Below are positions 6,723 through 26,179 of a stretch of DNA of 38,047 nucleotides, piece after piece (the first letter of the stretch is position 1; every line of letters starts with the position of its first letter). The stretch lies in the NCBI RefSeq assembly GCF_000474945.1, contig NZ_KI440839.1, positions 1 through 38,047 of the forward strand, in the 5' to 3' direction. The position numbers and the translations under genes were made by a program. The notes beneath the pieces were generated by a model that was given only the letters and a program-made list of their open reading frames with translations, was not told the origin of the DNA and ran no database searches. This DNA comes from Solimonas soli DSM 21787. Its GTDB lineage: Bacteria > Pseudomonadota > Gammaproteobacteria > Nevskiales > Nevskiaceae.

Positions 6723-6862
6723 TCAGAAATCTCCTTTCAAAAAACGAAAAACAAATACCGATGTCCGGCAGACCGCACCGGCTCATAAGCTCGGCAACCG
6801 ATTTTAGACGAATGCAATATCCCTACCTAGGATGCCGCTCACGTCAGGCCTGCTCGCCATTT

Positions 6863-6880: not shown

Positions 6881-6929
6881 TCTCCGTCCTTGAAAGCTGC
6901 CCCCTGCTTCTGCTTACAGACGGTATGGC

Positions 6930-7695: not shown

Positions 7696-7720
7696 GAAAA
7701 TTCGATCCCATTGGAATCGA
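7696..7720 (-). terminator. Likely intrinsic terminator of the polysaccharide operon
   Basis: Reading the minus strand just after the fkbM stop codon, TCGATTCC and GGGATCGA can pair over eight positions (one U-G wobble) around a three-base loop, followed by AATTTT. This is a short-stem intrinsic terminator candidate 8 bases past the last gene of the locus. Confidence 0.45.
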
Positions 7721-7727
7721 GATTAAC

Positions 7728-8480: not shown

Positions 8481-8564
8481 AAGGCACCTCGACTTTTGGC
8501 ACCGCTAATAGTCGAATAACTGACTCGTACTCACCCCGCTTACTCTTGGTTAGATACAATTTTA

Positions 8565-9116: not shown

Positions 9117-9132
9117 TCTTATAAGGCTAAAG

Positions 9133-9888
9133 TTATCGAAAGCTAGATAATATGCGCAGGCCCACCGTGGATATGCCGCGTTTAAAGAAACTCCTGGCGC
9201 GTATCCAGAAAGGGAGGCCAAGGACATCACGCTGAATTGCATATGGCTCCATGAATAGGCGCCTAGGGTTGCGGTAAGAAGTGTCCCCTACTCGAAATTT
9301 AACGAGTGGCATGTTTGTATAGCTCTCGTGGCTTCTTCGTTTGACAAGCTGAGCGGCCAGATAATAATCCCCACAAATTCGATAGCGCAGATCGTATGGT
9401 TCATCTTTAACAAGTTTAGTACGATAATAAGTAGCTTGCTGATTAGCGGGCACGCCATGCCAGATATAGCTGTTCGAAGACCGCGCTAACCGAGTTATCG
9501 AACGACCGCTGGGAAGAATTAATTCGGCAGCACCGAATAAGACGTCCGGCGCTTCAGCCAACAAAATTTCCGCAACAGTTCGGAGAGTGTTAATTGAAGG
9601 CAACACATCGCCAGCATTGAGAAAGACGAGGTATTCACCGTTCGCAAGGGCTGCGCCCTTGTTCATAGCATCATATATTCCTTCATCTTTTTCACTAAGC
9701 CATGAAAAATTAGATATAGTTACGCTACGAAGATATTCAACCGAGCCATCAGTAGAAGCGCCATCAATAACAATCCACTCGTAGTTATTGAACGTTTGCC
9801 GCCGAAGGCAATCGTGGACATCGATCAATCCCTTCCTATCATTGAAGGATACTGTGATCACGCTAATTATATGTTTCGACATATTCAT
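9133..9888 (-). CDS. wcaE: Glycosyltransferase family 2, WcaE-like
   Basis: A 251-residue GT2 enzyme with the GT-A fold. The N-terminus has the strand SVITVSFNDRKGL, then WIVIDGASTDGS with the first acidic nucleotide-binding residues, SEKDEGIYDAMNKGAALANGEY, and the metal-binding region FLNAGDVL. These features, the length (248 in E. coli WcaE) and its place between wzy and wcaF support the WcaE assignment. It should add one sugar to the undecaprenyl-linked repeat unit on the cytoplasmic side; donor and linkage cannot be told. The start ATG overlaps the wzy stop by four bases (ATGA), so the two are translationally coupled. There is no transmembrane segment. Confidence 0.86.
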   Translation of the reverse strand: MNMSKHIISVITVSFNDRKGLIDVHDCLRRQTFNNYEWIVIDGASTDGSVEYLRSVTISNFSWLSEKDEGIYDAMNKGAALANGEYLVFLNAGDVLPSINTLRTVAEILLAEAPDVLFGAAELILPSGRSITRLARSSNSYIWHGVPANQQATYYRTKLVKDEPYDLRYRICGDYYLAAQLVKRRSHESYTNMPLVKFRVGDTSYRNPRRLFMEPYAIQRDVLGLPFWIRARSFFKRGISTVGLRILSSFR

Positions 9889-11165
9889 GAAAAACCAATT
9901 ATCCCCCGCTTATTCTTAAATTTAAGGGGCGATTCGTTTTGAGTCTGCCGATCATTATCGAGAACACAGCAGAAAAAGCCCCAAAAGAACCAGAATGTCG
10001 ATAAAGCAACCAGAAATCCGCCTAATGACATCGCAACACTGCATAATATACAGAACGACCAAGCTGCAGATTTTTTGCTTCTAGCCTCGGCGCCTAATAA
10101 TTTCATTTTCCATATTAGAATTGAAAACGGCAACATCATAATGAGCAGGCCAATAATTCCGTGCCAATGCATCATCCCGACGAAAGAGTTATGAATATGT
10201 ACCGTAGCGTCGCCGGCATGTATTCCGGATGAAAGTGTTGGTGTTCCCAAGCCAAATATGGGACTTTCTTTATATTCTTCCAGCCCTGCTGTTGTTGTAT
10301 TGAATCTTGTTCGAACAGAAATATCACTTCCAATAGATTCGGGGTTTATGGCATTGGCAGCAATTGTGATAACTATTATTCCCAGAAGAATTAATATTCC
10401 GGGAATGAGACTTCGGACTCTGGAAAGCATCTTAACTGGATAATAACCCAAAATTGCTAAGCCAAATATCAACCAACTCGTTCTGGAGTAAGTGAAATAA
10501 GAAAATATTGCGCCAAAGAATAGGAATAAAATTTTAAATTTCTTGTCATTGCTAAGAAAAAGCAATGGCAACGTTGCGGCAATCACAATACCGCTATAAG
10601 AAGGTTCGTACCACACAGAATACGCGCGATTTGCGCTAGCCCAACCGGAAAAGACGGTGATTCGTGTGGCTGATGTGTCTGGAGGACTACGAAGGAACGA
10701 AAAAAATTCTGGCAGGTCGTAAACCTGCGCGAAATATGTATAGATGCCATAAATGAATAATCCGGAATGAATATTAATCATCAAAAAAACCGGATCAACA
10801 CGACGCCGCATTGATTCCGTGTAAAATGCATACCCAACAAGTCCGCAAAAAAATAGTACGCCATAAAAAAGGGACTGGCGAATGTTGGTGGCCACCAAAG
10901 CCGCGTCGGCGGTAAAAAATGATACAAAGGAGCCAATTAAAAAAAGAATACTAAGTGCGGCCGGCCACTGAGCGAAGCGAGCACTTTTTCCCTTGGTGAC
11001 GAGACTAAGAATTACAAATCCTACGGAAGTTAAATAAGCTGGGATTCTTACAGATACGACGGAGGAGAATAGTAGCGTGCTATTAAGTAAGGGGATCGCT
11101 AGCAAAGCCAGCAAAAGAAATGTGTACGGTTTCTTACGCACGACCGCGCCCGATTGCCTCACCAT
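9885..11165 (-). CDS. wzy: O-antigen/exopolysaccharide polymerase (Wzy-like)
   Basis: A 426-residue very hydrophobic protein with about ten to twelve predicted transmembrane segments. The large loop region (roughly 160-200 and 270-320) includes SGWASANRAYSVWYEPSYSG and GLGTPTLSSGIHAGD, and the segment after it reads HIHNSFVGMMHWHG, as in the O-antigen ligase/Wzy superfamily. It should polymerise flipped repeat units at the periplasmic face of the inner membrane. Its place between wcaC and wcaE is that of wcaD in E. coli, whose product is the colanic acid polymerase. The start is uncertain: ATG 11165 overlaps wcaC by 32 bases, and GTG at 11141 is an alternative. It is AT-rich compared with the flanking housekeeping genes, as is usual for polymerases. 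Confidence 0.85.
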   Translation of the reverse strand: MVRQSGAVVRKKPYTFLLLALLAIPLLNSTLLFSSVVSVRIPAYLTSVGFVILSLVTKGKSARFAQWPAALSILFLIGSFVSFFTADAALVATNIRQSLFYGVLFFCGLVGYAFYTESMRRRVDPVFLMINIHSGLFIYGIYTYFAQVYDLPEFFSFLRSPPDTSATRITVFSGWASANRAYSVWYEPSYSGIVIAATLPLLFLSNDKKFKILFLFFGAIFSYFTYSRTSWLIFGLAILGYYPVKMLSRVRSLIPGILILLGIIVITIAANAINPESIGSDISVRTRFNTTTAGLEEYKESPIFGLGTPTLSSGIHAGDATVHIHNSFVGMMHWHGIIGLLIMMLPFSILIWKMKLLGAEARSKKSAAWSFCILCSVAMSLGGFLVALSTFWFFWGFFCCVLDNDRQTQNESPLKFKNKRGIIGFS

Positions 11166-12342
11166 ACGCCTGCTTGTACATGGTCATCATGACCCCGCCA
11201 CTAAAACGCCTCAGTGCCTTTTCACTTAGCATTTTCCTATTGAAAATGGAAGGCCGGCTTTTAACACGCTCCAGAAATGAATTTAGGTCCGCCAGTGGAT
11301 GCGAATCTACACCACCTAATACAGCTCGAGCAGCTGGACTATCAACCGCCAAAACAGTAACACCACACGCCATTGCTTCTGCCATCACCAGACCAAATGT
11401 ATCTTTTTTTGAACTAAATATAAGGTAATCACAAGAAAATAGGATTTCAGCCAGAGTCTGTCTATCCGTCAGAGTGCCGTGATTAATGACGTTGGGATTG
11501 AAAAAAGGAGAATTTTGTCCAACGGTATGAAGAATAACATTACCGCCCCCCAATAGCTTATTGATTAGTTCATGATCGGTTTTCGTGGGATCTGATAAGT
11601 CCTTGGCTATAACGATAATATGAACCCGCGTATTATCGCGCTGCTTATTAGTTTCCCAATTAATTCTCCGGACACTTTGCTCAAAATCAAAGTCAAGGCC
11701 ATTAGAAATCACCTTTACTTGCTCCGTGGGGAAAACAGTTTTGAACATGTCAGCTACAAACGGAGTCGGTGCTACGATAGTCATCATTGGGATTAGCGGT
11801 GCTAGTGTTTTTTGCTTGTACCTTCTCATCGAGGCCGACACATCGATCATGGCTGGCGGATAATTTTTCTGTGTCGGGCATTTTCCGCACCCAACGGTCC
11901 ACCGCATACAGTTTTCGATAAAAGCACACCTACCTGTAAGCAACCAAAAGTCATGCGCCGTCCAGACGATTGGTTTCTGTGAGACACGTAATTGCTTGCT
12001 CAACCAGCCGAGGGGTAAATAGTAGCTGTGCGTGGCGTGTAAATGGATTACATCAGAATGCTTGATGGCTGCCTCAAATGAAACTGCTCTATCTCCGTAG
12101 GGAGGCAAAACCTCTACTCCAGCAATTCGGTGGGCGATAAAATTGGTCATCGCTCCAATTTTGCTGCCGAGTTGCCGCGCTCCGGGGATATGGGCCTCTT
12201 CCGGCGATCTTCCGGCACCCGGGCCGTATCCATAGAAGAATTCGCTTTTATCGCCCGCTTGCATTAAGCGACGGTGCAAATCGAGACCTACTTGAGCGGC
12301 GCCACCTTCGGCGAGCCTAACATTGACATGAGTTACTCGCAT
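11134..12342 (-). CDS. wcaC: Colanic acid-type glycosyltransferase WcaC
   Basis: A 402-residue GT4-type enzyme closely matching WcaC. The N-terminus VTHVNVRLAEGGAAQVGLDL corresponds almost word for word to the E. coli protein (NVRLAEGGAA), as do VWTAHDFWLLTGRCAF and GCGKCPTQKNYPP, which carry four conserved cysteines. The C-terminal donor-binding half has FSSKKDTFGLVMAEAMACG, the E-x7-E like signature of GT4. It transfers a sugar to the growing lipid-linked repeat unit in the cytoplasm. It overlaps wcaB by ten bases upstream and wzy by 32 downstream, which argues for tight co-translation. Start at ATG 12342. Confidence 0.91.
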   Translation of the reverse strand: MRVTHVNVRLAEGGAAQVGLDLHRRLMQAGDKSEFFYGYGPGAGRSPEEAHIPGARQLGSKIGAMTNFIAHRIAGVEVLPPYGDRAVSFEAAIKHSDVIHLHATHSYYLPLGWLSKQLRVSQKPIVWTAHDFWLLTGRCAFIENCMRWTVGCGKCPTQKNYPPAMIDVSASMRRYKQKTLAPLIPMMTIVAPTPFVADMFKTVFPTEQVKVISNGLDFDFEQSVRRINWETNKQRDNTRVHIIVIAKDLSDPTKTDHELINKLLGGGNVILHTVGQNSPFFNPNVINHGTLTDRQTLAEILFSCDYLIFSSKKDTFGLVMAEAMACGVTVLAVDSPAARAVLGGVDSHPLADLNSFLERVKSRPSIFNRKMLSEKALRRFSGGVMMTMYKQAYGEAIGRGRA

Positions 12343-12887
12343 GGTGGACTGCAGGATTCCAATTTTAGCGGAATAGTACGTGCGGGATTGCCGACTGCCA
12401 TGTGATACGGGGGCACATCCTTAATTACGACTGCGCCAGCTCCGATCACCGAATGATCCCCAATCTCAATGTCACCGATGATTGCGGCGTTAGCGCCAAT
12501 TTCCACATAATTTCCGATTCTGGGAGATTTTTGTTGGCGCCCATATTGGTCCAGCTTGCAACCAATCGTGATGCAATGACGAAGGCGGCAATAATCACCG
12601 ATTACGGTGTTTTTATTCACAACAATTGCGTAGGCATGATCCACGATAAGACCTTTTCCAATTGTCGTCGCTGCGGGCAACTCGAATCCGAACCAATATT
12701 CAGTTAATAATCGATAAATAACCAATACTGGAAGCGCCCACAGTGAGTGCACCCAAAAGTGTTTCCTATGAACGGACGCCGCGTGAGCCAGTCGATAAAA
12801 GACAATCAGTGGCAACTTTATGTTGCCGTGATTACGCTTTACGTCTTCTGCAATCAGATTGAAAACGTTCATGATAAAGTTCATCAT
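12333..12887 (-). CDS. wcaB: WcaB-like serine O-acetyltransferase family acetyltransferase
   Basis: A 184-residue acetyltransferase of the serine acetyltransferase-like hexapeptide family. Matches to WcaB include LWALPVLVIYRLLTEYWFG, ATTIGKGLIVDHAYAIVVN, RLRHCITIG and IGNYVEIGANAAIIGDIEIG. It probably acetylates a sugar of the repeat unit. The frame is open to 12938, but the ATG at 12887 overlaps the stop of the GT2 gene in the ATGA manner seen throughout this operon, so that start is chosen. The wcaB-wcaC order is the same as in E. coli. It is the second of three acyl-transfer enzymes in the locus, with WcaF and the membrane acyltransferase at 19728-20807. Confidence 0.89.
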   Translation of the reverse strand: MMNFIMNVFNLIAEDVKRNHGNIKLPLIVFYRLAHAASVHRKHFWVHSLWALPVLVIYRLLTEYWFGFELPAATTIGKGLIVDHAYAIVVNKNTVIGDYCRLRHCITIGCKLDQYGRQQKSPRIGNYVEIGANAAIIGDIEIGDHSVIGAGAVVIKDVPPYHMAVGNPARTIPLKLESCSPPCE

Positions 12888-13606
12888 CGGATAGCGCTGC
12901 GCGCGCGATAAAGCCAGTACCAAAGCTCTCGACGCCATGCAGGATCTGACAGATGTGTGCGCTGTGCACGGCGTGCCTCTCCGAGTGAACGTACAAGCTG
13001 ACGCGAGCTGACCCCGGTACCCGCCATTACTGTAACCACGCCCCGAAAATGCCGCGCACGCAGATCGGATTTGCGAAGAAGAAGCTCATAGTCGAGGGCG
13101 ATTTTGTATGTTTCGTCATACTGTCCAAAGCGGCAAAATAGCTCGCGCGCATGAAACGCCGCTGGATGGGGAATGCACATCCGGCGGCGTAATTTTGACG
13201 GATTGAAAACTTCTCCGATCACTTGCCCGTCGTGAGGTCCACCGTCGAACTTGAGTTGGCCGTAAATCACGTCCCACCCCTGCTGTAGTTCTGCGCTGGC
13301 ATGTGCCATCACGTCGGGAGATGCAAGGACATCGTCGGCCCCAATGAAAAGAAACCAATCACCGGATGCTTTGTCGATCGCTTTATTCCAAGCATGCGCG
13401 ATGCCCCGATCCTTCGCCGACTCCCAATAACCGATATGAGCCGCCCATTGCGTGAGAATATCGGCTGTACCGTCAGTAGAGCCGCCATCCATAATAATCA
13501 ATTCTTTGTTGTTATATGTTTGCTCGACGAAGCTCTTAAGGCAGCGCTCTATGGTGTTGGCCCCGTTGAACACAGCCACTATCGTGGTGATGCGTGGCCC
13601 CATCAT
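12884..13606 (-). CDS. Glycosyltransferase family 2 (in the wcaA position)
   Basis: A GT2 protein of about 240 residues. It shows ITTIVAVFNGANTIERCL, LIIMDGGSTDGTADI, KDRGIAHAWNKAIDKASGDW and FLFIGADDVL, the usual GT-A donor and metal sites, then an LDYELLLR segment further on. It occupies the position of wcaA, directly before wcaB, but by sequence it resembles WcaE-type GT2 enzymes at least as much, so I leave the symbol empty. The ATG at 13606 overlaps the stop of the glycoside hydrolase gene (ATGA) and is preferred to the upstream frame to 13660. It adds one sugar of the repeat unit; the linkage is unknown. Confidence 0.86.
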   Translation of the reverse strand: MMGPRITTIVAVFNGANTIERCLKSFVEQTYNNKELIIMDGGSTDGTADILTQWAAHIGYWESAKDRGIAHAWNKAIDKASGDWFLFIGADDVLASPDVMAHASAELQQGWDVIYGQLKFDGGPHDGQVIGEVFNPSKLRRRMCIPHPAAFHARELFCRFGQYDETYKIALDYELLLRKSDLRARHFRGVVTVMAGTGVSSRQLVRSLGEARRAQRTHLSDPAWRRELWYWLYRARSAIR

Positions 13607-15297
13607 GGCTTGTTTTTCACGCTCAATGGCTTGAGGATCCAATTGCTTTGAAATTGGCATGCTATGAAATAAATTCCACTTATCGTGTTAGCTGGGATTT
13701 TCAGCTGGCCGTCAGCGGTGATCTTTAGCGGAGTCGGCGCGGCGGTGAGGCCGTCTATCTTCAACGTATCACCAGCGCGAGCGGATAATGCAGATTCGAC
13801 ATGTACGTCGAAAAATCCTGGGTCGGCAATACGCGCAAATATTGGGCTCCCGCTCAGCTGCGGTAGCGCACCCGAAAGCGGACGGCCCATCATGTCTTCC
13901 CAATTACCCAGCGACTCCGGCAATTTCGGCGTGGGTGCGCCGGCAGGTGCCCAGGCGGTAAGAACACTATGATCCGGGGTGCGATAGACCACCATCTCCG
14001 TTGTCGAACCGGTGTCCAATCGTCTGCTGTCAATCGCTGGCGAGAGCCAGCGGACCACGTTGGCGAACGCAGCATAGGCTGGCTTGGGGGTTCCATCAGC
14101 ATGGACGACGGAAAATTCGCGCACGCCCGCTTGCTGCGAATTAAAGCGAAGGCAGAAGTAAAGGAGAGCGTCGATCTTTTCGGCACGCATCAACGCCAGC
14201 GAACGGGTCAAATATTGTGCTTGCACAAGTTCGCTTACCGGCGGTTGCCAGCCGCCCGCCGCAGTCGTCCATCCCCATTCACTCATATAGATCGGCATCT
14301 CTGCATGGCCCGTCTCGACAAGAAACGCTTTGATCTCGCGGATCTTCTGTATAAATTTTCCTTCCGGCGCCGTCCCCTCAACGTAAGGATGAATGGAAAG
14401 TCCGTCTATATGGTCGAAAAAGCCAAGTCGCTGATAGCGCCGCAGGCGGTCGACATCCAGATTGGCGAAGGTTGGGCCAATAATCTTAGTCGATGGCCGG
14501 GCAGTCCTGATGATGTCCGCAATCGTGATGAGCATTTTCACGAGATCGGCTTCATTGCCTTGCCAAGCGTATTCGGGCTCGTTATATATCTCGAAATACG
14601 GCGCAAATGGTTCGATGTCGTTTGCGAACATCGCCACTAGTTCCTTGAACTTGTCCCAGTCTTTGGGCGCCGCCAGCTTCTTTGTTCTAGTCGTGCTCGG
14701 GTCAGATGTAAGCCAATCTGGTAGCCCATACGCTAATGTGCCAATGAGCTTCATACCTTGATAATCGCCACGCTTGCGGCGCTGACTGATTATCCTTCCA
14801 TCCTTGTCGAGTCTATAGTCACGCAGGTTCCATATTTGCCGTGCCCATGTGGAACCCGCTTTCAAAGCCTGTTTGGGATCTCCATGCACGGTCCAGATTC
14901 CAAATGGAGAATGAGGATCCGCAGAAGCTGCCTGCCCAATTACAGCCGCTGTGGTGCTCCAAGATCCTGCTTGCCCTGTGACCTGAGCGTCGATTGCATA
15001 ATAACCGCGCTGAGGCAAGTTCAGAATCACGTTGGGCGCGGGTAACGCCGGCAGAGCCAAGTTAACAGTTTTGCCATATTCGTCTTTCACCGTTAACGCC
15101 AACACCTTGGCACCAGCTATCGCAGGGGTTATTTCGACGCTGGATCGTTCAGCTGTGAAAATGTTGTCCTTTTCGCTGCTTTTAAAGGCAATAGCGCTGG
15201 ATCTATCGCGTTGAGGCTGCACCGCTGCGACGTCGAACGACAATAGCGCTGCCAGCATAGCCACTAATATGCGAAAACAGCGCTGGACGTTGATCAT
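13603..15297 (-). CDS. Secreted clan A glycoside hydrolase, PslG/GH39-like
   Basis: A 564-residue protein with an N-terminal signal peptide (hydrophobic stretch about 8-25, likely cut near DVAA). Domains in order: a small beta-rich N-terminal module (about 30-125), then a (beta/alpha)8 barrel (about 130-420) with acid/base Glu240 in FEIYNEPEYAW and candidate nucleophile Glu340 in IYMSEWGW, then a beta-sandwich tail. The two glutamates in NEP and SEWG contexts are typical of clan GH-A, as in GH39 and PslG. Such enzymes in exopolysaccharide operons trim the polymer in the periplasm or release it. The start at 15297 overlaps the GT4 stop by four bases (ATGA); the frame also stays open to 15414. 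Substrate unknown. E. coli colanic acid genes have no equivalent. Confidence 0.83.
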   Translation of the reverse strand: MINVQRCFRILVAMLAALLSFDVAAVQPQRDRSSAIAFKSSEKDNIFTAERSSVEITPAIAGAKVLALTVKDEYGKTVNLALPALPAPNVILNLPQRGYYAIDAQVTGQAGSWSTTAAVIGQAASADPHSPFGIWTVHGDPKQALKAGSTWARQIWNLRDYRLDKDGRIISQRRKRGDYQGMKLIGTLAYGLPDWLTSDPSTTRTKKLAAPKDWDKFKELVAMFANDIEPFAPYFEIYNEPEYAWQGNEADLVKMLITIADIIRTARPSTKIIGPTFANLDVDRLRRYQRLGFFDHIDGLSIHPYVEGTAPEGKFIQKIREIKAFLVETGHAEMPIYMSEWGWTTAAGGWQPPVSELVQAQYLTRSLALMRAEKIDALLYFCLRFNSQQAGVREFSVVHADGTPKPAYAAFANVVRWLSPAIDSRRLDTGSTTEMVVYRTPDHSVLTAWAPAGAPTPKLPESLGNWEDMMGRPLSGALPQLSGSPIFARIADPGFFDVHVESALSARAGDTLKIDGLTAAPTPLKITADGQLKIPANTISGIYFIACQFQSNWILKPLSVKNKP

Positions 15298-16553
15298 GAG
15301 GACGTTCTTGCTCTCAGCATGGCTTCGTAAATTCGGCAGTACGCCATTGCCACGTCGATATCTCTTAACTGCCGTTCGGCAGTTTCTCGGCTTTGACGGC
15401 GCAACGAGTCGCAATCTGCATCCAGTAGCGACACGATTCCTGCAGCCAAGTCACTCGCGTCGAAGGGCTGTGCGCGATAGCCGTTGTAGCCGTTCCGGAT
15501 CAAGTCCTTGAAGCCGCCAATGTCAAAAGCGGCGCAAGGCGTACCGCAGGCTAAAGCCTCAACCATGGTATTGGGCAGGTTGTCTTGCATTGAAGGGGCA
15601 ACGAAAACATTTGCAGCAGAATAAGCTAGTGCCAGCGTCTGCTCTTCGCTCACGTTGCCTAAGTAGTGGGTGGGCAAACCGCCTAGTTGCTCGTTATCCC
15701 GCGCCGCATTGCCAAATACCAGCAACCGCGCCCCGCGCACTTTAAGATCTTCCGCTCGTGCTGAGAGAGCCGCGCGCAGATACTTGTAACCTTTGCGCGG
15801 ATCGTCGGTGCTAGATGTAGCGCCGAACAGCAGCAGTGGGCCGCCCGGTTCTAGGCCAAGCTGTCGGCACGCCTCGGCACGAGCTGTAGGCCGGTAAAGA
15901 TCCAGATCGATAGCATTAGCAATCGTATGGCTCGGCTGATGGGCCATCAATGCACTCCGATTCGCGCATTCTTGCAACCAGCGGCTTGGGCAGATCAGAT
16001 GAAGAGTCTTGTTCTGCCAGCGCCGCTGCTTAAGCGCGTAAATCTTTGCATCCCAGTCAATACCCCGCAAAGTCGGTGGGCGATTGCTTGCGAAATAGCC
16101 GGATTCCCAGCGCGCTCCCAATGCGTCTTCTTCGTAATGCGCCGCACCGGTAAATGCCCACATATCATGGAGCGTCCAAGCGACCGGCGCACGTAGTTGA
16201 GCGATCTCGCCGATCGACAACGTTCCCAAGCCAATCCAGTGCAGATTCACAATATCTGGCTTGGCGCGATTGGCCCAGAATCCCAGTCCGCTGGGCGCGA
16301 GATTGAGCGAATGGCGAATTCGATTGCCATCCTTCTGTAGCGCACTCAATCGATCTTCCACCCAGCCATACGCCCGGCTAGGGAGCTTGCGTATCCCGTG
16401 CAACGGTGCATGAACGTGCTCGTCTTGTGATCGCTTGCGGACCACCAGCATCTGGCTATCGATGCCAATCTTTCTCAGACCTGCATGCAATCGATGCGCT
16501 GCCCGCGCAGCGCCACCCTGGACGTCGAAGTGGCTGACATGCAGCACCTTCAT
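15294..16553 (-). CDS. Glycosyltransferase family 4
   Basis: A 419-residue GT-B fold enzyme. The acceptor half starts MKVLHVSHFDVQGGAARAA, with VAWTLHDMWAFTGAAHY resembling WcaC. The donor half has LLLFGATSSTDDPRKGYKYL and VAPSMQDNLPNTMVEALACG with the GT4 E-x7-E signature, followed by TPCAAFDIGG. It transfers a hexose or deoxyhexose to the lipid-linked intermediate. It lies directly after the pyruvyltransferase fusion gene with a four-base overlap; in E. coli the pyruvyltransferase gene wcaK is likewise followed by a GT4 gene, wcaL. Sequence similarity to WcaL itself is not evident, so this is positional only. Confidence 0.87.
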   Translation of the reverse strand: MKVLHVSHFDVQGGAARAAHRLHAGLRKIGIDSQMLVVRKRSQDEHVHAPLHGIRKLPSRAYGWVEDRLSALQKDGNRIRHSLNLAPSGLGFWANRAKPDIVNLHWIGLGTLSIGEIAQLRAPVAWTLHDMWAFTGAAHYEEDALGARWESGYFASNRPPTLRGIDWDAKIYALKQRRWQNKTLHLICPSRWLQECANRSALMAHQPSHTIANAIDLDLYRPTARAEACRQLGLEPGGPLLLFGATSSTDDPRKGYKYLRAALSARAEDLKVRGARLLVFGNAARDNEQLGGLPTHYLGNVSEEQTLALAYSAANVFVAPSMQDNLPNTMVEALACGTPCAAFDIGGFKDLIRNGYNGYRAQPFDASDLAAGIVSLLDADCDSLRRQSRETAERQLRDIDVAMAYCRIYEAMLRARTSS

Positions 16554-18919
16554 ACAAGAGTTTCAGCGGAAACAGGCAGCAAGGATGCGATATTCGTGTC
16601 AAGCACCGATTCCAACTTTAAATCCGGTGCGGCGCGTCGCTGTCGTGCCGCAAGTAGCGGCCCCAAGGCGTCAACAAGAAAATCCGCCGATACGTCGAGA
16701 AAAGAGCGAAATGCAACGTCGGCACTTGCTGCGAGTGCCTGCACTTTGCCCTTGCCCAATGTGTAGTCGATGGCGACGGCCGGCACTTGTAGTCCAAGCG
16801 CGAACACCAACGAGTGATAGCGCATGGCCAGAACTGCGTCTGCACCTGCGAAGACGCGCGCATAGTCCAGCGGAGTAAGTTCAGGGCCAAGCAGGGATAA
16901 ATCCATCCGGGATCGCAGATGCGGACGCTGGCGTAACAATCTGCGGTAATACCAGCGATCGTCACTACCGAAGTGATTCGTGCACATCGGCAAGGGCACT
17001 ACGGTGAGATCGTTGTGTGTGGCCAATAAGCGCTCTAGCGCGTCCAGGATGGCGCCTTCAAAGCGGCGATTGGCGTCAGCTACAACTTTTCCGGAAAGGT
17101 GTGCACCGTATTGCTGCGCGGGAAAATCACGCAGGCCGAGTATAAGTTGGCGCCCGACTGGTCGTTCAGCTGGTTGTACCTGCTCGCGAATGGCGGCCAG
17201 CCAAGTGAATGCTGGATCCTCCGCAACGTGATCTGTCGCGTCGCTAACCACAACGCCAATTTCGTGCGCAGATTCTTTCGACCGCGGGTCGCGATAAATG
17301 CGGAGACTGGCCTGATTGAGCAGGCGCGCAATGTCGCGATTGCGGTACGTTCCACCGAAGGGGCCAAGGCCGCAGCCCAGCGTCGCTGTGGGCACGCCAG
17401 ACGCGACCGCACGCTCGAACAGCACACGCATGTCGGCGATCTCGTCGATCGCCATTAACGGCCCACCTCCAAAGAACAACCCAGCAAAGTGATCGATGTT
17501 GGTCAGTGCCTGTTCAACGGTCACGATCTCGGAGCCGGTCAACTCCTCCATCTGGTCACGCGTAATTTGGCTGATATAGGGATATAAGGACACCACTGCG
17601 AACTGCACCGATCCGAGCTTTCGCCGCAGTGCCCGAATAAGTCCGGCCAGTATCGCTTTGTCTCCGAGCGTCTCAGTGCCATACCAACCACAGATGAGAT
17701 AACGCTTGGCCTCTCCTACATCACGGTGGAGATTGTAGGCAGGCGAATCCGATTTACGAATACCTGTGAGTTGCGAGATGCGGCGGTCGTAGCGCCGACG
17801 TGCCACCATTGATTTTGCCAAAGAAAGAGCTTTACTCGTCCCAGGAATACCGAGGCTCTTAAATTTAGCGAGCGCCTTGCCCGCGGCTCGCCGCGCCAGC
17901 TCGTCACGCGGTGGAATGCCAACATAGTCATGGGCGCAGTCATCGCACTTGTTGGTGATGATGTCCTGCAGGTGTGGTTGCTCACTGAAGAAGACTGCTT
18001 GGCTGTCGTCTTTGTGAATAGTGCCGAGTGTCTTGCTCTGCACAGCACAGTACAGCAGCTCACCATGAGCGGTAATGGTTGCGCCCCGATGTTGCCAGTC
18101 GCAGCCGGCGCGGCGCGATGCACCATTAACAAGTTGGCCGATCAATGAGCGGTAGAAAAACTTCTGTGCATCGCCAGGCTCGTAGTGTTCAATGAGGCCA
18201 TGAAGGAACTCGGCGATGTGGAACCGTTCAAAGTTAGTCAGCGCATAGGGGTCACGGAGATTTTCTGTATAGAGCCGCTTGTGCGGAATCCCGAGCCGAT
18301 ACTTTACATAGAGGTTCTGCTCGTGGCAGTAGTCGAACAAGTCAGCAAGTCCATAGACGTTCTCCTTGATGATGGTGCAACCGATGCGTAATGCATCGAC
18401 TTCCGGTGAATGCTTGCAAAAATCGATAACGTGTTGGGCGCGCGCAAAATTGCCAGGCTTTCCACGCACGCGATCATGCATTTCGCCAAAACCATCGAGC
18501 GAAACCATAACATCGAGCCGAGCACCGTAACGATGCGCAATGCTCCCCACTTCTCCAATGCGTTGTATCACTTCCCTGTAACGGTACGCATTAGTGATCA
18601 ACGCAATAGACTTGAGCTTAGGTAGCTCATCGAACAACACTTGCACTAGTGCAGCCAAGTCCTTGCGCAGCGTGGGTTCACCGCCATTAAGTCCGACAGT
18701 GGCCACTTCAGAGTAAAGCGGATTGCGCAGCCCTATCCGGAGTTGATCCGGAGTAATGTCTTCGGATTTTTTGTTCTCCCAAATGCGGCACATCTGGCAC
18801 TGAGAGTTGCAGATGTCGATCACCGGAAATTGGATGACGATCGGCTTCTCGAGTGCCAAAGGCCGCTGTTTGACGAGAAGCGATAGTTGCTGCAGTCGGC
18901 TGGACAAGGCAAAGGACAT
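16550..18919 (-). CDS. Radical SAM/SPASM-like - polysaccharide pyruvyltransferase fusion protein
   Basis: A 789-residue two-part protein. Residues about 25-340 form a radical SAM enzyme: the [4Fe-4S] motif C37-x3-C41-x2-C44 (CNSQCQMC), GGEPTL at 79-84, VSLDGFGEMHD, and a C-terminal cysteine group C273, C291, C325 and C328 like a SPASM/twitch auxiliary cluster. Residues about 405-789 are a polysaccharide pyruvyltransferase (WcaK/CsaB family): CGWYGTETLGDKAIL (410-424), FFGGGPLM, TLGCGLGPFGG, and MRYHSLVFALGLQVP near 725. The second half should add a pyruvate ketal from phosphoenolpyruvate; the first may do radical chemistry on the same sugar or on the nucleotide-sugar. One continuous frame without stops supports a real fusion. 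It is coupled to the GT4 gene by ATGA overlap and follows the PhyH gene by nine bases. Confidence 0.88.
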   Translation of the reverse strand: MSFALSSRLQQLSLLVKQRPLALEKPIVIQFPVIDICNSQCQMCRIWENKKSEDITPDQLRIGLRNPLYSEVATVGLNGGEPTLRKDLAALVQVLFDELPKLKSIALITNAYRYREVIQRIGEVGSIAHRYGARLDVMVSLDGFGEMHDRVRGKPGNFARAQHVIDFCKHSPEVDALRIGCTIIKENVYGLADLFDYCHEQNLYVKYRLGIPHKRLYTENLRDPYALTNFERFHIAEFLHGLIEHYEPGDAQKFFYRSLIGQLVNGASRRAGCDWQHRGATITAHGELLYCAVQSKTLGTIHKDDSQAVFFSEQPHLQDIITNKCDDCAHDYVGIPPRDELARRAAGKALAKFKSLGIPGTSKALSLAKSMVARRRYDRRISQLTGIRKSDSPAYNLHRDVGEAKRYLICGWYGTETLGDKAILAGLIRALRRKLGSVQFAVVSLYPYISQITRDQMEELTGSEIVTVEQALTNIDHFAGLFFGGGPLMAIDEIADMRVLFERAVASGVPTATLGCGLGPFGGTYRNRDIARLLNQASLRIYRDPRSKESAHEIGVVVSDATDHVAEDPAFTWLAAIREQVQPAERPVGRQLILGLRDFPAQQYGAHLSGKVVADANRRFEGAILDALERLLATHNDLTVVPLPMCTNHFGSDDRWYYRRLLRQRPHLRSRMDLSLLGPELTPLDYARVFAGADAVLAMRYHSLVFALGLQVPAVAIDYTLGKGKVQALAASADVAFRSFLDVSADFLVDALGPLLAARQRRAAPDLKLESVLDTNIASLLPVSAETLV

Positions 18920-18928
18920 ATGATCGAC

Positions 18929-19741
18929 CTAAAAGTCTACGAGCGAGCGGCCGATTCGGTTAACGATACGACGCGCAATATTCTTTTTGCGTGGTGGTTC
19001 GTAGGGCCGCGAAAAGCGCCGCTGCAAGGCAGAGGGATGGCCGCCGCGGACGACAATCGGCGCGCCGCGGGGCACATAGATTTCGTCAAAACTTTGGTAT
19101 GACGCTCGATACACCAGACGCAATGACTCCGTATGGGCTTCGTCACTGCCATGCACGACAAGTTGGTTAAAGATAAGCACATCGCCCGGATCGAGCGTAA
19201 TGAACTTGGCTTTGTCGGTATCTAGGTGGCTGACGTCCGCGCGATCATGATGTGTTTCGCCCTTCACGCGGTGCCACTTTAGGAAACCGCCCTTATGCGT
19301 GCCTGGAATAATCTTCAGCGCACCGCCGGTTTCTGTGACTGGGTCGATCGCCATCCAGGCAATGAACTTAAGCGGTTCGTCGGGTCGCGAAATAAAATCT
19401 TGGTGAAAAGGTACGCCGTTTTTTTTGCCCTTTGGCTTATACACCATGCTGTTCTCGTACAGCAGGATATCTGGACCGAGCACAGTCGTAAGAGCTTCGA
19501 GAATATCCGGATTACGTGCCAGCGCTTGGATTTCGGGATGTCGCTGGAAGAGATCGTAGAGCACGCCTTGATCAGCACGATGCCGAAGGTAGTATCTGGC
19601 GAACGGGTCTTCAAGGCCGATTTCAGCGTACTTCACAATCTCTGTGAGCAGCTTGCGCATCGCCGCAAGTGTGTTCTCGTCGAACACCTTGCGTAGCACT
19701 ATGAAGCCATCGGCTTCGAAATCATATTCACGGTTTGGCAT
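18929..19741 (-). CDS. Phytanoyl-CoA dioxygenase (PhyH) family oxygenase
   Basis: A 270-residue Fe(II)/2-oxoglutarate-dependent oxygenase of the PhyH family. The jelly-roll facial triad is visible: H113-Q-D115 in VPFHQDF and H197 in LVVHGSD, with R208 placed to bind 2-oxoglutarate. GDVLIFNQ and GALKIIPGTH are also typical. Family members hydroxylate small molecules; in this locus the substrate could be a sugar, a lipid carrier part or an acyl group, which I cannot resolve. The ATG at 19741 is preceded by CAGG and gives a normal N-terminus; the gene overlaps the acyltransferase end by 14 bases. The frame open to 19846 is not needed. It lies directly before the radical SAM-pyruvyltransferase gene, suggesting a joint tailoring step. 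Confidence 0.86.
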   Translation of the reverse strand: MPNREYDFEADGFIVLRKVFDENTLAAMRKLLTEIVKYAEIGLEDPFARYYLRHRADQGVLYDLFQRHPEIQALARNPDILEALTTVLGPDILLYENSMVYKPKGKKNGVPFHQDFISRPDEPLKFIAWMAIDPVTETGGALKIIPGTHKGGFLKWHRVKGETHHDRADVSHLDTDKAKFITLDPGDVLIFNQLVVHGSDEAHTESLRLVYRASYQSFDEIYVPRGAPIVVRGGHPSALQRRFSRPYEPPRKKNIARRIVNRIGRSLVDF

Positions 19742-20807
19742 AGGAAACCTGAGGCAGTAGTTTTTCAAAAAGCATGCGCCAAAAAGCCTTTCTATGCTCG
19801 GTGACCAGAGCCAATAGAAGGGTAAAAGCGAAGATGGCAACGGCACTGATAGCAGTGACTGCCAAATTTATAGAAAATAATCCAAACGCTGAGAAAAGAA
19901 CGATGATAGGAACATGAAACAAATACAGCGAGAAGCTTGATCCGGCAAAATATTGAATAATATGCCTGAAACGCAGGAGCGAGTCGCTTTTATCCAACAT
20001 GCACCAGCATACAATTCCGACGATCGAGGGAACGCATGCATAGTAGAAGAGGAACCAACAATGTTGCCCTGCCGGAAGGAACTGATAACCCATACCCCAG
20101 ATATCAATGAACGCTCTAAATGACGGGGGCATCACGATTGCAATAAGAAGCAGAATTGAGGCGACCAGTATCAAGTACCGCTCGTTTTGCAAAGACCTCC
20201 GAACCGATGCTTGCCTTCTGTATAGGTAGACTCCAGCAAGCCATATAGGAAACAGCAAAATAATTTTCCATCCAGAGATAAGCAGCGAAATCCCAAGAAG
20301 TAGGATGCGTTGCCTACCCCGGAAGTAGGTATGCACGCCATAGATTATGTAGTACCAAAACTCGTATGCCAGCGTCCACATCGGGCCGTTGCTGAGCCAG
20401 CGTATGCTTGCGAAACTGTTTTCATGTAGAAAACTGCTGACAAAAATAAAGTCAACCAATGCGCGTGCGGAGAACGGGTCCACATATTCGAGGTATTTCG
20501 ATACATCGACTTGACGGCCAGAGAAATCTAAAATAAAAGTTAACGCAATGGCCGGAACATAGACCGAGTAAAGTCGCACTATTCTCGCAATAAAGTAGTC
20601 TCGAAATGTTTCGTGCTTATGCTCGGAAACGAAAGCAATGAGATAACCGCTCAGCACGAAGAATATTGCAACTCCCAGAAATCCAAATGGGGCGAAGCGA
20701 TGCTGCGGGACCGTCGGAAATGCAAAATGTCCATAGTGCGCGAGAAACACCATCATCGCGGCAATCCATCGTAAAAAATCCAGCCTGACCGATAGATTCC
20801 GGTCCAT
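19728..20807 (-). CDS. Acyltransferase family 3 membrane protein (OafA-like)
   Basis: A 359-residue integral membrane O-acyltransferase with about ten transmembrane helices. The N-terminal RLDFLRWIAAMMVFLAHYGH carries the conserved Arg and catalytic-type His of the family. GVAIFFVLSGYLIA, RIVRLYSVYVPAI and FSLYLFHVPI are other family motifs. Such proteins transfer acetyl or similar groups to sugars across the inner membrane. It probably acetylates the repeat unit or the polymer, beside WcaB and WcaF. The start ATG is one base after the wzx stop, with GAGG upstream within the wzx end. Confidence 0.89.
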   Translation of the reverse strand: MDRNLSVRLDFLRWIAAMMVFLAHYGHFAFPTVPQHRFAPFGFLGVAIFFVLSGYLIAFVSEHKHETFRDYFIARIVRLYSVYVPAIALTFILDFSGRQVDVSKYLEYVDPFSARALVDFIFVSSFLHENSFASIRWLSNGPMWTLAYEFWYYIIYGVHTYFRGRQRILLLGISLLISGWKIILLFPIWLAGVYLYRRQASVRRSLQNERYLILVASILLLIAIVMPPSFRAFIDIWGMGYQFLPAGQHCWFLFYYACVPSIVGIVCWCMLDKSDSLLRFRHIIQYFAGSSFSLYLFHVPIIVLFSAFGLFSINLAVTAISAVAIFAFTLLLALVTEHRKAFWRMLFEKLLPQVSYAKP

Positions 20808-20808: not shown

Positions 20809-22152
20809 TCAGTGCCTCAGGAGAATTAGGGATCTTAGCTTGATCTTCGCCATTGGACGCATGGGCCTACATACGAAGTCGAACACCAAGTACGCAACGG
20901 ATAGCGAAGTCAGGGTGGCAACAGCAGCGCCAACAGCACCGTACCGTGGGATCAGGATGAGATTGAGCACCACGTTGACTGACGCACCTATAAGATTGCG
21001 GAAGAGATTCAGCCGGACCTTTCGTTCCGCCATAATCCATGAGCCTGAACCCAAGCCCAGAGACATGAATAGGCCACACCAGATCTGAATGACGAGAATG
21101 GTGGCTGACTCCGCATAGCTGGCGCCATACAAAAACTTGATTGCAGGGGCGGCGAGGAATTGCACGATGGCAATAACCAGATAAGCGAGCCCGACCAGCA
21201 TCGTCATCAACTTCTGCAGTTCGCGCATGTAATCTGCGGGGCGCTCAGTCTTGATGCGGACAATAGCGGGAAATGATGATGAAATCAGTGCCATGGGCAC
21301 AAAGTACCAAGCCTCCGATAATCGCGCCGCTACGGCGAAGATGCCGGCCGCTTCTGGGCCATCAAGCTCGCGCAGCATGACCTGATCGAGTCGCATGAGC
21401 AGTAGGCCACTGAAGCCAGCGAAAATTTCGGGCCACGACTCCTGAAGTAGCCGTGCGCTAGTGCTCGCTTCGAAGGCCAGGCGCATCTTGATCAGATGAT
21501 GCCTGTGATAAATAAGAACGAGCGCCAGACTGGAGGCCGCGAAGTCCAGCAGCATGACCCACACGAAGGAGGACAAGGGTGCTTGGAAATAGAGCAACAC
21601 GAGCTTCACACCCGACGTCGCGAAAAAGGCTAGGCTGCGCGCCATTACGACCGGCTTAGAATTAACCCGTGATTGAAATAACAAATCGATGCTATCGGTC
21701 ACGCTGAAGAGAATCTGAGAGCTGACGATAGCGACAATCCATCCGTCGCCCCATCCGCTAATCCACTGCACACCTACTGCGGCCGAGTAAGCCACCACAG
21801 CGCCAGTAAGTCGCATCGTCCACATAACGGCGAGAAAGCGGCTTGCATATAATTCGTCTTTGGCGTGCTCCACCAGCTCGCGCACGAAGATCCGATCCAG
21901 TCCTAACTTGGCGAAGATCGCGAAGATGCCGGCATAGGCGATTGCAGAATTAAGTCGACCGAAGTCTGCGGGGCCAAGGTATCGGGCCATCCACACACCG
22001 ATCAGCAGCGCTGCCGTAAGGCGGATCATCTGCTCGCCCATCATCCAAGCCGCATTCGACAGCATTTTTTGTGCTGAGGGCCGATTTGAGAGCTTGGCGA
22101 ATATGCGTTGCATGGACATCTGAAGTAAGCGCAGGATGGCGTCCTTTTCCAA
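20809..22152 (-). CDS. wzx: Wzx-type polysaccharide repeat-unit flippase
   Basis: A protein of about 447 residues with twelve or more hydrophobic segments, of the MOP/polysaccharide transporter family. MLSNAAWMMGEQMIRLTAAL and VWMARYLGPADFGRLNSAIA near the N-terminus and PRYGAVGAAVATLTS near the C-terminus are typical Wzx signatures. It flips the undecaprenyl-linked repeat unit to the periplasm for Wzy. It is the first gene after a 371-bp gap that carries a good promoter, so it probably heads a sub-operon reaching to fkbM. The start is uncertain: the longest form begins with TTG at 22152, and in-frame ATGs at 22119 and 22113 are equally plausible; none has a clear ribosome binding site. Confidence 0.9.
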   Translation of the reverse strand: MEKDAILRLLQMSMQRIFAKLSNRPSAQKMLSNAAWMMGEQMIRLTAALLIGVWMARYLGPADFGRLNSAIAYAGIFAIFAKLGLDRIFVRELVEHAKDELYASRFLAVMWTMRLTGAVVAYSAAVGVQWISGWGDGWIVAIVSSQILFSVTDSIDLLFQSRVNSKPVVMARSLAFFATSGVKLVLLYFQAPLSSFVWVMLLDFAASSLALVLIYHRHHLIKMRLAFEASTSARLLQESWPEIFAGFSGLLLMRLDQVMLRELDGPEAAGIFAVAARLSEAWYFVPMALISSSFPAIVRIKTERPADYMRELQKLMTMLVGLAYLVIAIVQFLAAPAIKFLYGASYAESATILVIQIWCGLFMSLGLGSGSWIMAERKVRLNLFRNLIGASVNVVLNLILIPRYGAVGAAVATLTSLSVAYLVFDFVCRPMRPMAKIKLRSLILLRH

Positions 22153-22523: not shown

Positions 22524-24791
22524 TTAAGTGGAGTCCGGCTTCGACTTATAGCCATAACTCGAGTAACCGTATGCATACCCATATGCGCCATAGCCGTAGC
22601 TGCCGACGCGAGCGCCGACTTGATTGAAGATCATCCCGCGGACCTTGACGCCAGCCTGTCGCAAACGCCGCACGGTCTCTTCGATGGCGCGCATCGGATG
22701 TTCTGCAGACTTGAGCACCACCATCGTCGTACCGGCAAGGCGGCCTATGATCGCGGCGTCCGTCACCGGCAATACTGGAGGCGTATCGACGAGTACATAG
22801 TCGTATTTCGCGGAGAGGTCACGCATCAGCTGCGCGAAGCGATCGTGCATGAGGATTTCGGAAGGGTTCGGCGGGCGCGTACCGCCAGCGATGAAATCCA
22901 GATTCTGGACTGCGGTTTTTCTGATGATCGCTACCTGCTCCGCCGTGCCTGTGATGTACTCGCTAATCCCCGGCTTTTGCTCCGTATTGGCATACTTGTA
23001 CAAATGGCCGCGGCGGAGATCGGCGTCGAGCACGATCGTGCGCTTCCCTGAGAGCGCCAGCACCGCGCCGAGATTGATTGATACGAAGCTCTTTCCCAGC
23101 CCTGCGATCGGACCGGTCAGCATGATGATGTTGTTCGGGGCCTCCAGCATCGCGAAGTGCAACGACGTGCGCAGGCTGCGCAACGCCTCGATCGCGAGTT
23201 CGGTACCATCCAGGGCAGCGAGAATCTGGCCTTCAGCTGCCTTCTGCTTAATGCGCCGCATTAATCGCCGCTGTACGGGCGAGTATGGGATCGAGGCGTA
23301 GGTTGGCAGGCCCAGTACGCGCTCCAGTTCTTCCGGACGGTCCACACCGCGCAACAGCGCTCGCATGGCGAATACCGTCATCGTGCCGATGAAAGCGCCG
23401 CATATAAGACCAAACACGGCTATGAGCTTCTTTTTTGGCTTTGCCGGACTCAAAGGCATCAGAGCACGATCCACGATGCGAACATTGCCCACGGTACCGG
23501 CTTTGGTGACCTGGAGTTCCTGCGCAGAATTCAGCAATGCCGTATAAAGCTGCGTGTTCACATCAAGATCGCGCATCAGGCTCAGTACTTCTTGCTGTGT
23601 CTCTGGAAGCGTGGCCACCCTTTTTTTCAGGGACTCCTGCTCGCGCTCCACGCCGGCGATCTGCTGATTCAACGAAGTCACGACAGGGTGCTGCGCCGTA
23701 TATCGCAGCAATGCCGCATCACGCTTCTGCATGAGGTCCAGACGCTGCGTTTCGAGCTCGACAGACTGTTGCAGGACGATTTGCGTCTCCTGCTGCACGT
23801 CCACCGACCCCTTCTTCAGCTTGTAGGTATTGAGCTTGGCCTGTGCTTCATCGACCTTGGCTCGCAGATCCGGCAATTGCTTTTTCAGGAAGTCCAGCGA
23901 TTGCGCTGCCTGAGCCGAGCGTCGCTCGACGTTCTGGCTCAGATAGGCATCCTCAACGGCATTGACGAATTGCGCCGAAAAGTGCCGATCATTGTCTTCG
24001 AACTGCAGATTGAGCATGCCGGAGTCGCGGGGTTGCTCGTTTACCGTCAGTCTCTCATTGAGATCCCCCAGGAGCGTCTGCAGAGCAACACGTGTCACCG
24101 TGAAACGGGTGCCCGGACGGGCGTTCAGCTCCTGCACGAAGATCGAGACCGGACCATCCGGGGTTTCCACACTCGCGCGGATGCCGGCCTTGCCCTGCAG
24201 CACAAGCTCGCCGTCCCCGTTGTTCAAAGCATAGTCGCCGTCCTGTCCCACGGTCAGCGTAAAGCCCAGGTCGTACCAGTTTTCCGGGAAGTCCAGCGCG
24301 GTGATCCGCACGCGCTCTCCGCCCCAGGCAAAGCGCCGCAGTCCCAGGGGCGCGGGTGCGGGTGCCGACAGGCCCGTACGGCGCCGCACGATCGCCTTGC
24401 CGATAACGGGAAAATAGTTCGGCTCGACGCGGATGTAGAGCTTGAGATTGTCGATTACCGAGCCCAGCACCATATTGCTCTTGATCAGCGCAATCTCGGC
24501 CGGAGCCTCGGTGGGCGGAGATCCGATCAGAGATGAAAGCTGGTCCACCGACGAGCCCAAAGCGCTCTTTTCCTTCTCGACCTGCACGAGCCCATCGGCC
24601 TGGTAAATGGGCTGGGCCGTGAGCGCATAGATCACGCTTAGCAGCGTAGTGGCCACCGTGATCGCGAGCACGATCCATTTGCCGCTCCACACAATATCGA
24701 GCAGCTCGCGAAGGTTGATTTCTTCGTCGTCCCTTGTCAGCGGGCCGGTGAGGTTCGGAGTTTGATTCTGATCGTTCACGATAAAACGCAT
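22524..24791 (-). CDS. wzc: Wzc-like polysaccharide co-polymerase and tyrosine autokinase
   Basis: A 755-residue inner-membrane protein. Transmembrane helix 1 lies at about 37-60, a long periplasmic Wzz-type region with coiled coil at about 290-400, and helix 2 at about 456-477. The cytoplasmic BY-kinase domain has a Walker A-type motif GPIAGLGKS (560-568), Walker A' TIVLDADLRRG (585-595) and Walker B YVLVDTPP (665-672). The C-terminus has eight tyrosines between 732 and 748 alternating with Gly and Ala, the autophosphorylation cluster. It controls polymer length and assembly with Wza and Wzy. The usual partner phosphatase Wzb is not encoded in the window. It begins four bases after wcaI ends. 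Confidence 0.95.
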   Translation of the reverse strand: MRFIVNDQNQTPNLTGPLTRDDEEINLRELLDIVWSGKWIVLAITVATTLLSVIYALTAQPIYQADGLVQVEKEKSALGSSVDQLSSLIGSPPTEAPAEIALIKSNMVLGSVIDNLKLYIRVEPNYFPVIGKAIVRRRTGLSAPAPAPLGLRRFAWGGERVRITALDFPENWYDLGFTLTVGQDGDYALNNGDGELVLQGKAGIRASVETPDGPVSIFVQELNARPGTRFTVTRVALQTLLGDLNERLTVNEQPRDSGMLNLQFEDNDRHFSAQFVNAVEDAYLSQNVERRSAQAAQSLDFLKKQLPDLRAKVDEAQAKLNTYKLKKGSVDVQQETQIVLQQSVELETQRLDLMQKRDAALLRYTAQHPVVTSLNQQIAGVEREQESLKKRVATLPETQQEVLSLMRDLDVNTQLYTALLNSAQELQVTKAGTVGNVRIVDRALMPLSPAKPKKKLIAVFGLICGAFIGTMTVFAMRALLRGVDRPEELERVLGLPTYASIPYSPVQRRLMRRIKQKAAEGQILAALDGTELAIEALRSLRTSLHFAMLEAPNNIIMLTGPIAGLGKSFVSINLGAVLALSGKRTIVLDADLRRGHLYKYANTEQKPGISEYITGTAEQVAIIRKTAVQNLDFIAGGTRPPNPSEILMHDRFAQLMRDLSAKYDYVLVDTPPVLPVTDAAIIGRLAGTTMVVLKSAEHPMRAIEETVRRLRQAGVKVRGMIFNQVGARVGSYGYGAYGYAYGYSSYGYKSKPDST

Positions 24792-24794
24792 TCG

Positions 24795-26111: not shown

Positions 26112-26179
26112 CTCTCGGGTATCCGATTTCCGTTGGCTCGTAGCGCTACGTCGATGCGCGATTTGCGTATCCCCTTTGC

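Follow-up and report, generated by a model that had tools for sequence, protein, structure and literature searches.

A conserved fusion of a Twitch-type radical SAM half and a polysaccharide pyruvyltransferase half in exopolysaccharide gene clusters: a candidate glycan-tailoring enzyme

The stretch of DNA analyzed here (the window, 38,047 nucleotides of Solimonas soli DSM 21787) contains a gene for a 789-residue protein in which a radical S-adenosylmethionine (SAM) half is joined to a polysaccharide pyruvyltransferase half (Table 1). The open reading frame (ORF) runs from an ATG start to its stop codon without interruption, in agreement with the single unbroken frame described in a first-pass annotation of this DNA. 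In Pfam, residues 33–169 match Radical_SAM (PF04055; E 5e-10, 40.2 bits versus a cut-off of 29.5) and residues 418–719 match PS_pyruv_trans (PF04230; E 1.4e-20, 74.8 bits versus a cut-off of 25.3). At E 0.001, the fusion is the sole PF04230 match in the genome. In NCBIfam, the best 25 of 34 matches all fall under their cut-offs, with CsaB and assorted radical SAM families as the best. Both Pfam domains are also matched, at E 0.1 or better, by 16/16 members of alignment A1, a set to which the window protein belongs. With the window counted, the fusion is present at 23 loci in Pseudomonadota, Cyanobacteriota, Desulfobacterota, SAR324 and Bacteroidota. Because this identical architecture recurs in independent assemblies, which carry it in one frame, the frameshift or misassembly that the first-pass annotation had allowed for can be set aside, and an assembly or sequencing artefact is rejected as vanishingly improbable. 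Judged from the sequences, both halves are real and seemingly intact, and their pairing is conserved over several phyla.

To examine the N-terminal half (N-half), conserved residues were compared across 20 fusions, a set that also served for the distance comparisons below and excludes loci L013, L016 and L019. The CX3CX2C motif (C37, C41 and C44), the GGEPTL motif (residues 79–84) and four later cysteines (C273, C291, C325 and C328) lie where they had first been annotated. The three motif cysteines are kept in 20/20 fusions (16/17 in another set, where the miss is L013), and GGE (G79-G80-E81) and the four later cysteines are invariant in all 20 (the latter also in 17/17), although identity among these N-halves falls to 32%. 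The later cysteines define an auxiliary site, C273-X12-G-X4-C291-X33-C325-X2-C328, whose Gly is kept in 19/20. As set out in the part of PMC6231123 drawn on here, a SPASM motif has seven cysteines arranged as CX9-15GX4C-gap-CX2CX5CX3C-gap-C. The window protein has the first four and lacks the last three, and the SPASM model PF13186 is matched by one of the 16 A1 members (E 0.02). Under the definition in that paper, the auxiliary domain is a Twitch domain, with a putative single cluster; both domains of the annotated radical SAM/SPASM-like and pyruvyltransferase pair are retained and the SPASM label is replaced. The curated Twitch model NF033640 gives 43.2 bits, under its cut-off of 170. The best PDB sequence match of the N-half is the Twitch sactisynthase SkfB (1.4e-12), and S140, R152 and T182 (each 17/17) align with the SAM-contacting Ser211, Arg223 and Thr251 of that enzyme. 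Where SkfB has CX33CXC, the fusion has CX33CX2C, such that the X33 spacing is alike and CX2C takes the place of CXC; SkfB acts on a peptide and has a domain for peptide binding before the core, whereas the fusion has only about 25 residues there (SkfB features as given in the same portion of PMC6231123).

In the C-terminal half (C-half), R543, R597, R700, H702 and K725 align with R148, R207, R306, H308 and K328 of CsaB, which mutagenesis or docking ties to phosphoenolpyruvate (PEP) binding or activity, according to the excerpted text of PMC10435577. All five residues, of which R597 corresponds to a loop residue and the other four to the PEP site, are invariant in the 20 fusions and are matched in 8/8 cyanobacterial CsaB sequences and in Escherichia coli WcaK. 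This CsaB set comprises 8 of 12 loci: L059, L063 and L066, for which another frame was picked, and L064, which has a long extra N-terminus, were left out of it and of the CsaB profile. PF04230 and the PEP-site elements R-x-x-x-S, R-x-H and K are common to the C-half and the ketal-pyruvyltransferases WcaK, CsaB, WbbZ and Pvg1p. The PEP-site His-to-Lys spacing is 23 residues in the fusion; it is 20 in WcaK, in the single CsaB for which it was measured and in Paenibacillus alvei CsaB.

A scan of genome contigs returned 18 loci with relatives of the fusion, 16 of which span most of the query, with best segments of 45–56% identity. These 16 are hosted by Azohydromonas, two Aeromonas, Yersinia, Shewanella, Symbiopectobacterium, Zooshikella, Plasticicumulans, Saccharospirillaceae, Chromatiales, SAR324, Desulfobacterales, a Bacteroidia metagenome-assembled genome (MAG) and three cyanobacteria. 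Six further fusions (L047–L050, L094 and L095) came from whole-genome searches with an N-half profile. The contig-end fragments L018 and L020 were dropped from the counts, and duplicate records of loci (L001, L002, L021, L023–L038 and L104–L106, L104 being L016) were removed so that each is counted once. Loci that were re-read are L022 and L039–L041 (as L047–L050), L042–L046 (as L051–L055), L069 (as L094) and L089 (as L095). The fusion lies in one frame at 15 of the 16 loci. The exception is Shewanella sp. HN-41 (L013:10123-12270), in which the N-terminus is in another frame and a 728-residue frame has a 95-residue piece alongside it; this locus was left out of alignments A1, A2 and A3, and L005, which is close to L017, was left out of A2 and A3. 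The frame of L016 is intact, as the TAG seen in its genome (G470) stands just ahead of the ATG. Frames of at least 762 residues, with the centre genome counted each time, occur in 2/398 genomes of the window's phylum, 4/292 of the phylum of a Microcystis MAG, 1/369 of the class and 2/148 of the order of A. rivuli, 1/247 of the phylum of the Desulfobacterales MAG and 2/247 of that of the Bacteroidia MAG. The fusion family is rare. Absence from every relative, which the first-pass annotation had named as a refutation, is not what was found, although none of the 60 other relatives drawn for the window carries the fusion. This sparse, cross-phylum occurrence suggests horizontal transfer. No plasmid matches the fusion at 1e-20, phages gave one record only (21.4% identity over 37% of the query), none of 12 pattern matches in viral contigs was confirmed, and E. 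coli genomes gave no match to the Yersinia alsatica fusion gene searched as DNA. PADLOC gave nothing beyond weak matches to viperin (4e-5 and 2e-4).

Close relatives of the radical SAM half are always fused in the genomes searched: N-half profile matches at E 1e-79 or better all lie in frames of 762–834 residues, except L013. Matches weaker than these, at about 1e-30 to 1e-15, are in shorter frames (307–454 residues), apart from one of 726 residues. The 12 stand-alone Twitch-like radical SAM proteins of the 307–454-residue range whose cysteines were compared all share CX3CX2C and CX9-15GX4C with the N-half. The 13 stretches examined around stand-alone radical SAM relatives (a set outside which L078–L088 and L090–L093 fall) contain no pyruvyltransferase-like ORF by profile, and an adjoining separate pyruvyltransferase gene, which the first-pass annotation had suggested looking for, does not replace the fusion there. 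Glycosyltransferase-like genes are present in some stretches around stand-alone matches. In the phylum of the Desulfobacterales MAG, 29/247 genomes match the N-half profile at 1e-15, all distantly save the centre genome. One candidate from this phylum, the 726-residue frame of G1313 (724 residues as read at L111:4712-6886, minus strand), was rejected as a member because its radical SAM/Twitch-like half is joined to a GT2-like portion. By eye, it has a GT2-like start and a Twitch-like cysteine tail, and may represent another kind of radical SAM/glycan-enzyme fusion.

The most constant neighbor of the fusion is a GT4 glycosyltransferase. One GT4 family lies downstream at 21/23 loci, directly in 20 and after one methyltransferase-family gene in L047, and a four-base overlap between the two genes is seen in 10 of the 15 pairs compared, the window counted. 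At L019, a Xenococcaceae MAG, only frame-broken GT4 remnants are found (L019:4600-6200); these and the broken frame of L013 may reflect real decay or sequencing error. Distance matrices for the 20 loci correlate between the N-half and C-half (r 0.91), between the C-half and GT4 (r 0.91) and between the N-half and GT4 (r 0.79), with 0/5000 permutations as high in each comparison. As a control, Wzx flippases from 13 loci were compared in the same manner and gave r values of 0.81 with the N-half, 0.75 with the C-half and 0.64 with GT4 (0, 0 and 2 of 5000 permutations). At these same 13 loci, GT4 gave 0.81 with the N-half and 0.90 with the C-half.

The fusion is proposed to be a bifunctional exopolysaccharide-tailoring enzyme, in which two active enzymes work on one glycan residue. 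This proposal is held with a little more than even confidence, which was lowered slightly on account of the Wzx control. In the proposed scheme, the GT4 enzyme would add a side-chain residue that the fusion modifies. The C-half would draw pyruvate from PEP and attach it, as a ketal, to two hydroxyl groups of this residue, and the N-half, with SAM bound on the CX3CX2C cluster, would generate a 5'-deoxyadenosyl radical and abstract hydrogen from this residue as well. The favored outcome would be a two-electron oxidation, either of an alcohol to a ketone or one that leads to decarboxylation or epimerisation, in which the auxiliary cluster accepts the second electron. A lipid-linked repeat unit is the probable substrate, encountered on the cytoplasmic side ahead of export. 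Since the fusion nearly always adjoins one GT4 family, its likely substrate is the product of that enzyme, and both substrate and product can be sought directly. A more far-reaching form of the proposal holds that a radical SAM enzyme oxidises or rebuilds a polysaccharide repeat-unit sugar (or the attached pyruvyl group) while the fused half adds pyruvate from PEP, giving an undescribed residue, and that the fusion and GT4 together form a transferable module through which exopolysaccharide clusters of several phyla could gain this residue all at once. This we regard as a serious possibility that falls somewhat short of even chances. Both halves come from known families, and searches of open-access PubMed Central (PMC) literature turned up no paper describing the conserved cross-phylum fusion, as judged from titles and the openings of abstracts (subscription papers and preprints lie outside those searches); in the pyruvylation review PMC6801904, the words radical, fusion, fused and bifunctional do not occur. 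Should the glycan prove to be the substrate of the radical half, radical chemistry would enter exopolysaccharide tailoring.

That the N-half reaction is an oxidation specifically is put forward tentatively, by analogy with BtrN, a Twitch radical SAM dehydrogenase of an aminocyclitol. Like the N-half, BtrN combines a radical SAM domain with one four-cysteine auxiliary site, and its auxiliary cluster has been proposed as the electron acceptor. Oxidation is favored here because the four cysteines of the fusion can fully ligate an auxiliary cluster, as in BtrN. The passages on BtrN used from PMC6231123 and PMC9012708, on which this comparison draws, mention no fused partner, in contrast to the fusion. 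The cytosylglucuronate decarboxylase BlsE, a sugar-acting radical SAM enzyme according to the portion of PMC3715490 consulted, matches the N-half by profile (E 4.2e-8). The fusion stays well below the BlsE equivalog TIGR04466 (31.2 and 33 bits versus a cut-off of 400), and the substrate of BlsE is a nucleoside sugar acid.

AlphaFold2 models of the whole fusion (predicted local distance difference test (pLDDT) 83.5, predicted template-modelling score (pTM) 0.83) and of the N-half alone (pLDDT 83.8, pTM 0.85) were compared with solved structures by Foldseek. Among the matches listed for the N-half are SkfB (the best), anSME, BlsE (TM 0.63/0.68) and MoaA. Those listed for the whole model are mostly UDP-N-acetylglucosamine (UDP-GlcNAc) 2-epimerases and other GT-B-type enzymes, with SkfB and BlsE as the radical SAM members. 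The check advised in the first-pass annotation yields radical SAM-type matches for the N-half and GT-B-type enzymes for the whole model. The UDP-GlcNAc 2-epimerase and GT-B matches presumably belong to the modelled C-half; the same epimerases dominate structure searches with WbbZ, as described in the available part of PMC10629545. The N-half matches also include, at rank 49, the radical SAM epimerase EpeE (8ai4_A), which speaks for an alternative in which the radical half works as a redox-neutral epimerase, inverting a single hydroxyl so that the pyruvyltransferase has the diol geometry it needs. A hydrogen donor for such a reaction could be the non-ligand residue C181, which is present in 17/17 fusions of one set and 19/20 of the other. 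In L047, however, this residue is Ser, and because C181 immediately precedes T182, the counterpart of the adenine-contacting Thr251 of SkfB, its side chain may face away from the substrate. We consider the epimerase unlikely, and return to the proposed bifunctional oxidising enzyme.

A number of observations weigh against the bifunctional proposal, several of which concern the C-half. The Asn of the NxGD motif, named for pyruvyltransferases in section 9 of PMC10629545, is Thr (Thr417) in 20/20 fusions and Asn in the 8/8 CsaB sequences and WcaK. In addition, an invariant Thr415 stands at the place, as read from the alignment, of the CsaB acceptor residue F16. Together, these departures suggest that the C-half may use another acceptor, or even transfer another group. 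The fusion is also far below the CsaB equivalog TIGR03609 (70.2 bits versus 213.1) and the WcaK equivalog TIGR04006 (32 bits versus 727.1). Orthology to CsaB or WcaK is rejected on these scores and the change to TxGD, and the fusion differs from those proteins further in being joined to a radical SAM half. What was first annotated as a full WcaK/CsaB-type pyruvyltransferase is, then, a domain that is present and looks intact, and a distant relative of the named enzymes. A PDB search with a C-half profile found no pyruvyltransferase (the best match, at E 0.15, is a chance match), nor do 5ax7 and 6x1l, which are solved pyruvyltransferase structures, appear in the best 50 Foldseek matches of the whole model. 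In the N-half, the cluster loop (residues 37–51) is poorly modelled, with pLDDT below 50, as is segment 211–224 in the whole-fusion model. BtrN is not among the best 50 Foldseek matches of the N-half, and PMC6231123 warns, in the section used, that predicting function by sequence clustering is difficult in this radical SAM subfamily. The GT4 evidence is also subject to reservations. Since Wzx co-diverges about equally with the N-half, much of the agreement is common to neighbors in general; GT4 co-divergence is not specific, and the C-half/GT4 pair stands out only modestly. The best colanic acid match among 19 GT4 partners is WcaC for 16, WcaL for two and neither for one, giving no clear WcaL orthologue, and the match of the window GT4 to a colanic acid protein is weak (5e-6). 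Finally, L016 has an intact fusion and neither GT4 nor Wzx in the stretch read. The fusion there adjoins very long ORFs (997–1809 residues). A different use of the fusion in L016 is possible.

The Thr415 and Thr417 changes, which set the fusions apart from all eight CsaB sequences and WcaK, would be explained if the radical half acted after transfer, on the pyruvyl group or the carbon bearing it, to give some other linkage, such as a carboxyethyl ether or a carbon-carbon link, instead of a plain ketal. Such chemistry would also explain why the halves are fused and why separate close homologues are absent from the genomes searched. The sequence gives no hint, however, that the pyruvyl group is a substrate, and the sugar-acting structural relative BlsE works on the sugar; this alternative is judged improbable. 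Slightly less probable again is an action on the glycan by the pyruvyltransferase half alone, with the radical SAM half being structural or regulatory or making a small-molecule precursor. A fusion by itself is no proof of a shared substrate, and invariant residues indicate conservation rather than activity. On the other hand, all seven cluster cysteines and GGE have been kept over 20 members despite the low N-half identity noted above, and the proposal of two active halves on one glycan residue is preferred.

The fusion gene is embedded in a colanic-acid-like cluster (Table 1). Twelve ORFs of the window have E. coli colanic acid proteins as best matches, corresponding to cpsB, gmm, fcl, gmd, wcaF, wcaE, wcaC, wcaB, a second wcaE-like GT2, wzc, wcaI and wcaJ. 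The order wzx-acyltransferase-PhyH-fusion-GT4 in the window can be compared with wzxC-wcaK-wcaL in E. coli, the wzx and GT4 neighbors being alike. The module occupies the place of wcaK-wcaL; this likeness is positional, the sequence match between the fusion and WcaK being weak (23% over 278 residues, 3e-8). Among 10 same-genus genomes, G003 is the sole one with a WcaC-like match at 1e-60. Its cluster contains, in one stretch, wcaJ-, cpsG-, cpsB-, wzx-, GT2-, wcaB-, wcaC-, wcaE-, wcaF-, wcaI-, gmd-, fcl-, wza- and wzc-like ORFs, with a single 309-residue ORF between wzx and GT2, and the pyruvyltransferase profile matches no ORF of this stretch. Given this similar cluster without a pyruvyltransferase-like ORF, the module looks like a swapped-in side-chain cassette. 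Within the window, six genes in 7728-12938 have a guanine-cytosine content of 0.42–0.48, versus 0.66–0.68 in genes at the window ends, which points to acquired DNA.

Table 1 Features of the fusion gene and of the surrounding cluster in the window.
Feature	Position	Strand	Description
Phosphomannomutase	893-2275		
Colanic-acid-like core	4296..12938	minus	fcl, gmd, FkbM methyltransferase, WcaF-like, WcaE-like, O-antigen-ligase/Wzy_C-family, WcaC-like and WcaB-like genes
GT2 glycosyltransferase	12884..13660	minus	WcaE/WcaA-like, weak
603-residue protein	13603..15414	minus	Inside the putative inserted module
GT4 glycosyltransferase	15294..16553	minus	4-bp overlap with the fusion gene
Fusion gene	16550..18919	minus	789 residues; Twitch-type radical SAM half and polysaccharide pyruvyltransferase half
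C-half	16553..17707	minus	Residues about 405-789; pyruvyltransferase domain
N-half	17852..18919	minus	Residues 1-356; radical SAM core and Twitch auxiliary cluster site
PhyH-family oxygenase	18929..19846	minus	Directly upstream of the fusion
Acyltransferase_3 family	19728..20807	minus	Probable O-acyltransferase (Pfam)
Wzx-type flippase	20809..22152	minus	Polysacc_synt (Pfam)
Wzc, WcaI-like glycosyltransferase, Wza, WcaJ-like priming transferase	22524..28280	minus	
UDP-glucose/GDP-mannose dehydrogenase domain	in ORF 33455-35956		

At other loci, the surroundings of the fusion and GT4 are recognizable in part. A Wzx family lies at most three genes upstream of the fusion at 14/23 loci, and a GT2 family is found at +2 to +4 on the same strand in 13/23. 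At E 0.001, nothing in Pfam, NCBIfam or PADLOC matches the 603-residue protein of the window. The gene just upstream of the fusion is variable and encodes a flippase, a PhyH oxygenase, a hexapeptide acetyltransferase, a sulfotransferase, a methyltransferase or a protein with no assignment. A PhyH-type oxygenase stands directly upstream also at the distant loci L012 (9134-9928) and L019 (1387-2211). A divergent subgroup has no Wzx-family gene within five genes of the fusion, and in this subgroup the enzyme may modify chain ends. An ATP-binding cassette (ABC) transporter ATPase family is encoded near the fusion in this subgroup (L049:12177-13448, L049:15985-17265, L050:5844-7091 and L047:5563-6807). 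The sole member of this family that was scanned, L049:12177-13448, matches ABC_tran and, under the cut-off, Wzt_C.

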